NCBI GenBank assembly: GCA_018830645.1
Contig: JAHJSA010000088.1
Coordinates: 62,001-126,000, forward strand
From: Actinomycetota bacterium
Lineage (GTDB): Bacteria; Actinomycetota; Thermoleophilia; RBG-16-64-13
DNA: 64,000 nt
Reading direction: 5' to 3'
The notes under the pieces were generated by a model that did no database searches, was not told the origin of the DNA, and saw nothing but the letters and a program-made list of their open reading frames with translations. Positions within the stretch are counted from its first letter, which is position 1. The number at the start of each line of letters is the position of its first letter. The translations under genes were made by a program, and so were the position numbers. Positions 6,648-9,443 of this stretch are shown here, piece after piece.

Positions 6648-6779
6648 GACGATATGTTCGCACAAACCCCCCCTCCGGGCGCACGTGCTACCATTCCTGG
6701 TTGGTCCAAGTCGCGTTCTGTTCCCCCAGCGCGGTCGGGCCGCCCGGCCAGACTCCATCTCAAGCAGCCAGGAAGCCGT

Positions 6780-8795
6780 ATGCCCACCACCGTTCCCGCC
6801 CGCATCCGCAACGTAGCCATCATCGCCCACATCGATCACGGCAAGACCACACTCATCGACGCCATCTTCCGCGCCGCCCACGTGTTCCGCGAGAACGCCC
6901 GGGTGGAAGAGCGCGTCATGGACTCGCACGATCTCGAACGCGAACGCGGGATCACGATCCGGTCGAAGCACTGCACCGTCGAGTGGGGCGACCATCGCAT
7001 CAACATCATCGACACCCCTGGCCACGCCGATTTCTCGGGCGAAGTCGAACGAGTGCTCAGCATGGTCGACTCCGTCCTGCTGCTCGTGGACGCCAACGAG
7101 GGCCCCATGCCGCAGACGCGCTACGTGCTCATGCGCGCGCTGCGACTCGGGATGCGTCCGCTGGTGATCATCAACAAGGCCGATCGCCCCAATGCCGACC
7201 CGCAGCGCGCACTCGACCTCACCTTCGACCTCTTCTTGGAACTCGGCGCCACCGACCACCAGGCCGACTTCCCCGTGCTCTACGGCTCGGGACTCGAGGG
7301 GTGGCTGGTGCGCGACCTCGACGCCGACGAACCGCGGGGCATGGACGCGCTCTTCGAGGCTATCATCGCGGAGGTGCCCGCCCCGCAGGTGGACCTCGAG
7401 GCCCCCTTCCGGATGCAGGTGTCCACCCTCGCCTGGAGTGACTACATCGGCCGCATCGGCTGCGGTCGCGTCCTCGGGGGCAGGCACCGCCTGGGAGAGC
7501 CGCTCACCCGCATGGTCACGCGGTATTCGACCGCCGTGGCCGCCGCTGACACGGATGGCGACGTTGGGATCCACGATGCGGCGGGTGCCAACGGCGCCGC
7601 GAGGACCCACGACCACCTCCACCACGTCGCTGTCGACACCATAGGCAGTCCCTCCACTGCCCCGTTCGAAGTGGTCTCTACCGAGACGGTACGTTCCACT
7701 CACCTGTGGGTGACGGACGGACTGGGGCGTGCAGAGACCGAAGAGATCGCCGCCGGCGATATCGTGTGGCTCTCCGGGCCGCCGGACCTTTCGATCGGCG
7801 ACACCCTCTGCGCTCCTCCCGCGGACGAGGCCCACGCACGCGCGATCGCACTTCCACCCCTGGAGATCGAAGAGCCTACCGTCTCGATGTTCTTCCTCGT
7901 GAATACCGGGCCCTTCGCCGGGAACGAGGGGCGCGCGGTCACCCTTCGCCAGATCCGGGATCGCCTCGAGCGTGAGGCACGCGTGAACGTGGCCTTGCGC
8001 GTCGAGGACCTCGGCCGTTCCGACGGGCTGAAGGTCTCGGGACGAGGTGAGCTCCACCTGGCTATTCTCATCGAAGAGATGCGGCGCGAGGGCATGGAGA
8101 TGACCGTCTCTCGTCCCGAGGTGATCACTCACCGCGACGCCAAGGGAAGACTACTCGAACCGTACGAGGAACTCACCATCGAGGTGCCGGAGGAGTACCA
8201 AGGAGTGGTCATCGAGAAGCTGTCTAGGCGCAAGGGTGACCTCACGGGCATGCAGAACCACGGCTCGGGCACGGCGAGGCTGGAGTTCTCGATTCCCACC
8301 CGCGGTCTCCTCGGCTACCGCACCGACTTCCTCACCGATACGCGTGGCCTCGGCATCATGACGGCCCGCGTCACCGGTTACGGGAAGTGGGCGGGCGAGG
8401 TAGCCCATCGAGACCGCGGCTCGCTGGTCAGCATGGACACCGGAGTGGCCACGGGCTACCAGCTCGAGAGCCTGCAATCGCGCGGCACGATGTTCGTCTC
8501 ACCCATGGATCGCGTATACGTCGGCATGGTGATAGGCGAGCACACCCGTCCGGATGACCTGGTGTGCAACCCTACCAAGACCAAGAAGCTCGGCAACTAC
8601 CGCTCCGAGAACAAAGAGATCGACACCGGCCTCAAGGCGGTCCGGGTCATGAACCTCGACCAAGCGCTCGAATGGATAGCTGATGACGAGCTGGTGGAGG
8701 TCACCCCGACGTCGGTCCGCATACGGAAGACGCTACTCGACTTCGAAGATCGTCGGCGCGCCGACAAGCGGTCGGCGGCCCTCGAGCCGGCCTGA
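6780..8795 (+). CDS. typA: Ribosome-associated GTPase TypA/BipA
   Basis: Translational GTPase of the EF-G family that binds 70S ribosomes and assists 50S assembly and stress responses. G1 [11 protein letters not shown]3 DTPGHADF and G4 NKADRP are all present, followed by EF-G-like domains and the TypA-specific C-terminal region ([17 protein letters not shown]-like block). The start ATG follows AGGAAGCCGT. At 671 residues it is about 60 longer than E. coli BipA. The extra length sits in the domain II beta-barrel (about residues 255-310, an Ala/Asp/His-rich stretch encoded near 7540-7680). The selenoprotein gene follows after 24 bases. Confidence 0.95.
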
Positions 8796-8819
8796 TCACG
8801 CCCACCGAAGGGAAGCGGC

Positions 8820-9443
8820 ATGACCACGCACATCACGATCTACTCCGACTACATCTGACCCTTCTGCTACGTCGGCGCGGGCATCGTCGACAGGCTCAAG
8901 GAAGAGTTCGACATCGCGGACACGTGGGTGAGCTACGAGATCCATCCGGAGACTCCATCCGCCGGGCGCGACCTTGCTGACTACTTCCGCGGGAGGGATC
9001 TTGCGCCCATGCACGAGATGCTTCGCTCGCGTGCGGCGGAGTTCGGCCTTCCGTTCTCAGCTCCGCAGATCTTGGCCAACTCCCGGCTCGCGATCCTCGC
9101 AGCCGAATACGCCCGTGATGTAGGCAGCCACGAGGCTCTCAGCCGGCGGCTGTTCCGTGCGTACTTCGCGGAAGGGCTCAACATCGGCGATGTCGAGGTG
9201 CTGACCACGTTGGGAGCGGAGGTCGGCCTTGACCCGGCGGCCCTGCGTCATTCCCTGCTCACGCACGCCCACGCCGACCGCCCAGCCGCGGCAGAACAGG
9301 ATGCACGGCGCATGGGCATCACCGGAGTGCCGACCTTCGTTGTCACGTCGCCGCCCCCCGGCTCGGAACCCAAACCCGAGCCACTGCGGATCGTGGGAGC
9401 TCAGCCGATCGCGGTGTTCCGGAACGCAATCAGCGGGGACTGA
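8820..9443 (+). CDS. DsbA/FrnE-family thiol oxidoreductase, predicted selenoprotein (in-frame TGA = Sec13)
   Basis: Thioredoxin-fold disulfide oxidoreductase of the FrnE/DsbA group. Read from ATG 8820 (AGGGAAG upstream), the protein begins MTTHITIYSDYI, then TGA (8856-8858), then PFCYVG. The TGA falls exactly where the family has the first Cys of its YSDxxCPFC active site, giving U-P-F-C, and the frame stays open for about 194 codons to 9443. The rest has the helical insertion and the GITGVPTFVV cis-proline loop expected of the family. A 7-bp hairpin 12 bases after the TGA fits a bacterial SECIS element. Conventional gene callers would start at 8928 and lose the active site. It may be co-transcribed with typA. 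Sec machinery (selA-D) must lie elsewhere. Confidence 0.85.
8871..8891 (+). promoter_or_regulatory. Candidate bacterial SECIS element
   Basis: Starting 12 bases after the in-frame TGA, GUCGGCG (8871-8877) pairs with CGUCGAC (8885-8891) over seven base pairs, including one G-U. The apical loop is CGGGCAU. A loop 19 bases from the UGA with G in its second position matches published bacterial SECIS rules (loop 16-37 bases from the UGA, G among the first two loop bases). SelB would bind here to insert selenocysteine. Predicted by hand. Confidence 0.65.

Follow-up and report, generated by a model that had tools for sequence, protein, structure and literature searches.

A predicted selenocysteine-containing FrnE-type oxidoreductase gene, truncated by standard gene calling, in a Thermoleophilia actinomycete

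A gene located in a 64,000-nucleotide stretch of DNA (the window) from a Thermoleophilia actinomycete very probably encodes a FrnE-type selenocysteine (Sec) oxidoreductase, in which UGA codon 13 is predicted to be decoded as Sec; we assign to this reading a probability of about 0.96. It is based on the position of the TGA, the Sec machinery of the genome, the covariation of a hairpin placed after the TGA, and the predicted fold of the product. The features of this region, all on the forward strand, are:

6777..8795, forward strand: gene of a TypA/BipA GTPase (Pfam BipA_C), start approximate
8807..8815, forward strand: purine-rich sequence resembling a ribosome site, GAAGGGAAG, 5' of the ATG at 8820; the sister species has a similar one (GAGGGGAAG)
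8820..9443, forward strand: predicted FrnE/DsbA-like selenoprotein gene, 207 amino acids, ATG start, TGA stop at 9441-9443 (Pfam PF01323, PDB matches)
8856..8858, forward strand: in-frame TGA, predicted selenocysteine, residue 13 and first residue of UPFC (column with Cys or TGA only, 110 homologues)
8865..8867, forward strand: TGC, Cys16, resolving Cys of UPFC (translation; invariant in the alignments)
8871..8891, forward strand: predicted bacterial SECIS hairpin, 7-bp stem (8871-8877 with 8885-8891) and loop CGGGCAU (8878-8884), from comparative pairing
8928..9443, forward strand: truncated ORF of 171 amino acids obtained by standard gene calling, with a GTG start and without strand 1, helix 1 and the active site

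The frame at 8820-9443 includes one in-frame TGA (8856-8858) and is then open until the TGA at 9441-9443; with the first TGA read through, the protein is MTTHITIYSDYI-U-PFC..., and among its 207 residues Cys16 is the sole Cys. An earlier note on this DNA had described an open frame from the ATG at 8820 with a single TGA at the first active-site Cys and an intact remainder, preceded by a good ribosome site; the translation confirms the frame, and the purine-rich stretch is seen at 8807-8815. The same note had stated that standard calling would give a truncated 171-residue protein from 8928, in agreement with the ORF list, which has only the frame that starts at GTG 8928. This ORF call is what favors the idea that the protein truly starts at that GTG and that the upstream stretch is untranslated; nonetheless, such a short form would have zero Cys, and none of the Cys homologues lacks the upstream stretch, which in the fold corresponds to strand 1 and the helix of the active site. 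In addition, there are 3 amino-acid differences from the sister-species copy (L025) in codons 1-36 and 42 from codon 37 onward, so that conservation is highest in the very stretch that standard calling drops. A start at GTG 8928 is thus extremely improbable, and the frame from ATG 8820 is preferred. The typA/bipA gene ends 24 bp 5' of this ATG and is also found directly upstream of frnE in the sister species; in another genome (G057) a TypA-like match adjoins frnE.

The assignment of the product to FrnE/DsbA proteins with a UPFC active site, also made in the earlier note, agrees with the matches to PF01323 and to FrnE in sequence and fold. The Pfam DSBA domain matches over the whole protein length (E 9e-30; 104 bits, cut-off 25.6), and the best PDB relative by sequence is FrnE of Deinococcus radiodurans (5cnw, E 1.6e-22); no NCBIfam equivalog scored over its cut-off. 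The AlphaFold model obtained with 38 aligned sequences (pLDDT 95.3, pTM 0.90) has the FrnE fold, with residue 13 just before the helix formed by residues 14-27 and UPFC at residues 13-16; a single-sequence model (pLDDT 43) was discarded. In a Foldseek search the top five PDB matches were all D. radiodurans FrnE (5co3, E 4e-15), followed by SCO1869 of S. coelicolor. The residue P171, which belongs to the motif GVPTF and is invariant in the alignment, probably represents the cis-proline loop.

An alignment with Cys homologues had been suggested in the earlier note as a means to evaluate the TGA. Among 110 aligned homologous loci, a few of which are duplicates because their genome was retrieved twice, 82 have Cys at position 13 and 28 have TGA, with no other residue; these proportions are not an estimate of frequency, the second set of loci having been found partly by a Cys-containing pattern. 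The second active-site Cys, position 16, is Cys in all 110 loci, and none of these homologues has a further in-frame TGA. A homologue was found in 36 of the 61 genomes searched, i.e. the genome under study and 60 relatives. The nearest relative, a sister species of the same genus, gives a match of 79% identity and carries the same TGA, which is also found in the same column in about 20 further genomes from several families and phyla; the TGA forms belong to Thermoleophilia families, a Chloroflexota MAG, Thermodesulfobacteriota, a Myxococcota-labelled MAG and a gammaproteobacterial MAG. According to a quick tree of 107 proteins, at least five changes between Sec and Cys are needed.

A nonsense mutation or a sequencing error in a Cys-type frnE, or a decaying pseudogene, could also account for a lone stop codon in a frame that is otherwise intact. 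However, separately assembled genomes, from that of the sister species to those of many other genera and phyla, have TGA at the same codon, and purifying selection is evident on the frame on both sides of the TGA; we consider this explanation hardly credible. The presence of the TGA in the same column across genomes, together with the absence of in-frame TGA elsewhere, rules out a chance origin of the TGA at 8856-8858, which is read here as a predicted Sec codon.

Among the Cys homologues, the Cys (TGC) FrnE of L029 (G008:C23:48400-48966) and L056:3001-3618 is sister to a Sec form (L032). Its genome keeps selA and selB, and 6 of the 7 SECIS stem pairs remain in this gene, which may possibly have changed from Sec to Cys recently and kept the hairpin as a fossil. 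Three other Cys FrnE (L057, L058 and L060), from contigs labelled Bathyarchaeota, nest in the quick tree inside the Sec-rich branch of family f1; either a transfer accompanied by a Sec-to-Cys change or a binning error may possibly explain this placement.

The predicted SECIS hairpin begins 12 nt past the TGA, and its loop carries three G. The SECIS-like hairpin of the earlier note was recovered as described with regard to its 7 bp and its loop CGGGCAU; its stability, in contrast, is not significant in the single sequence, given that its folding energy does not exceed that of shuffled sequence (z = -0.5). The evidence for the hairpin comes from the relatives. The energy of the whole stretch, evaluated against synonymous codons, gave a weak signal (mean z of -0.94 for Sec and -0.40 for Cys genes), and this test was replaced by one based on stem pairs, with the seven pairs defined on the window gene. 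The Sec genes have 5.6 of the 7 pairs versus 4.2 expected with synonymous codons (25 distinct sequences, one-sided Wilcoxon p 2.6e-6, shared ancestry ignored); for the Cys genes (79 sequences) the values are 3.3 and 3.6, respectively, with no excess. When 15 Sec sequences were compared (14 from the class of the window and one from Chloroflexota), 87% of the cells were paired; shuffles gave 78%, and slid registers no more than 51%. Compensatory changes on both sides were observed at 3 of the 7 pairs. At this register the stem is poorly paired in G010, G014 and the f3 family, and another register would be needed. From these comparisons, the predicted hairpin is conserved and covarying among Sec homologues, and weaker in some relatives. 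The f3 family (L050, L052, L053) is a more distant Sec-FrnE branch with UPWC; after the TGA, its three Sec genes fold other hairpins, in a register different from that of the window gene.

The earlier note had also claimed that the organism decodes selenocysteine, and had proposed a search for selA, selB, selC and selD. All four genes are present in the genome (3.87 Mb in 112 contigs, completeness 99.8%), and this full set supports the claim. The nearest named loci, LH_M24 (Actinomycetes), FR_37 (Thermoleophilia) and AS06 (Gaiellales), also place the organism in Thermoleophilia (Actinomycetota). The selA gene (558 bits) and selB (345 bits, C-terminal part included), which is located just downstream of selA, are both over their curated cut-offs and share a contig with selC, a tRNA-Sec with anticodon TCA (Rfam 72.6 bits, ARAGORN agrees). 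In selD (L010, G000:C73:21163-22089; 403 bits, over the curated cut-off) there is one internal TGA at HGSG-U-ACKL, the catalytic site where SelD proteins usually carry Sec or Cys, and this TGA is followed by a stable, GC-rich hairpin; SelD of this genome is itself a predicted selenoprotein. If TGA were reassigned to an ordinary amino acid organism-wide, the frame would also run on through the TGA, but nothing more speaks for this possibility; the complete Sec machinery, the use of TGA as the stop of the same gene and of the TypA gene just upstream, and the presence of only Cys at position 13 in the non-TGA homologues make it most unlikely, and Sec is the residue predicted for codon 13. In all 16 TGA-form relatives tested, selA and selB both pass the cut-off, as they do in only two (G008 and G055) of seven Cys-form relatives, the other five being without selA and without an over-cut-off selB (Fisher p about 6e-4, calculated by hand and ignoring relatedness). 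Within the window, there is no tRNA gene or Rfam match, and a regex scan inspected by eye gave no other convincing UxxC/CxxU candidate.

DsbA-like UxxC selenoproteins (COG2761/PF01323) were reported in 2005 by Zhang and Gladyshev (PMC1088965), counted across bacterial genomes in 2006 (PMC1794560), and included in reviews from 2022 (PMC9312934) and 2026 (PMC13188914, as 'DsbA-like protein form 1'); a few have also been reported for Asgard archaea (PMC11227280). The gene described here shares with this family (PMC1088965) the DSBA domain, Sec as the first residue of UxxC, and, further downstream, a SECIS-like hairpin whose small apical loop contains G. In this case the host is a Thermoleophilia actinomycete, and no paper describing Sec proteins in Thermoleophilia was found in the literature searched. 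Considering COG2761, which we take to be FrnE, the gene is a well-supported member of the already described DsbA-like (COG2761/PF01323) UxxC family, and its novelty is low because the family has been known since 2005.

The predicted structure has a TM-score of 0.85 (query-normalised) and 30% identity with D. radiodurans FrnE (DR_0659; PDB 5cnw, 5co3). Both proteins are of the cytoplasmic type with a CP(W/F)C-type active site, in which the first Cys is replaced here by Sec. The C-terminal CxxxxC of DrFrnE has been proposed to regenerate the active site, and some FrnE proteins are devoid of it (PMC8945050); this motif is absent here, leaving one U-C pair only. A Sec-containing FrnE has been reported in green algae (PMC6627142), likened here by description: both are annotated as FrnE Sec oxidoreductases, whereas the alga has the eukaryotic Sec machinery and SECIS.

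The product would be a cytoplasmic thiol:disulfide oxidoreductase of the FrnE type (DsbA family, COG2761/PF01323), with SelB, the Sec-tRNA and the hairpin 12 nt past the UGA directing Sec insertion at codon 13. Sec13 would stand where the nucleophilic, N-terminal Cys of the active site is otherwise found, with a probable catalytic role, and Cys16 would resolve the selenenyl-sulfide. From its homology, the most likely reaction of the enzyme is to reduce substrate disulfides or to rearrange them, and its physiological role may perhaps be related to oxidative or metal stress. A broader, tentative proposal, which we consider rather doubtful, is that a Sec-FrnE with a single U-C pair and without CxxxxC regenerates unlike DrFrnE, and that Sec and Cys have been repeatedly exchanged in Thermoleophilia and their relatives, a recent change from Sec to Cys at L029, with its fossil hairpin, being among these exchanges.

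Judged from the sequences, Sec decoding and a conserved Sec-FrnE are documented for Thermoleophilia. Standard gene calling truncates the Sec-FrnE gene, with loss of the active site, and the genes recognized here as predicted Sec forms are new members for a known, biochemically uncharacterised selenoprotein family.
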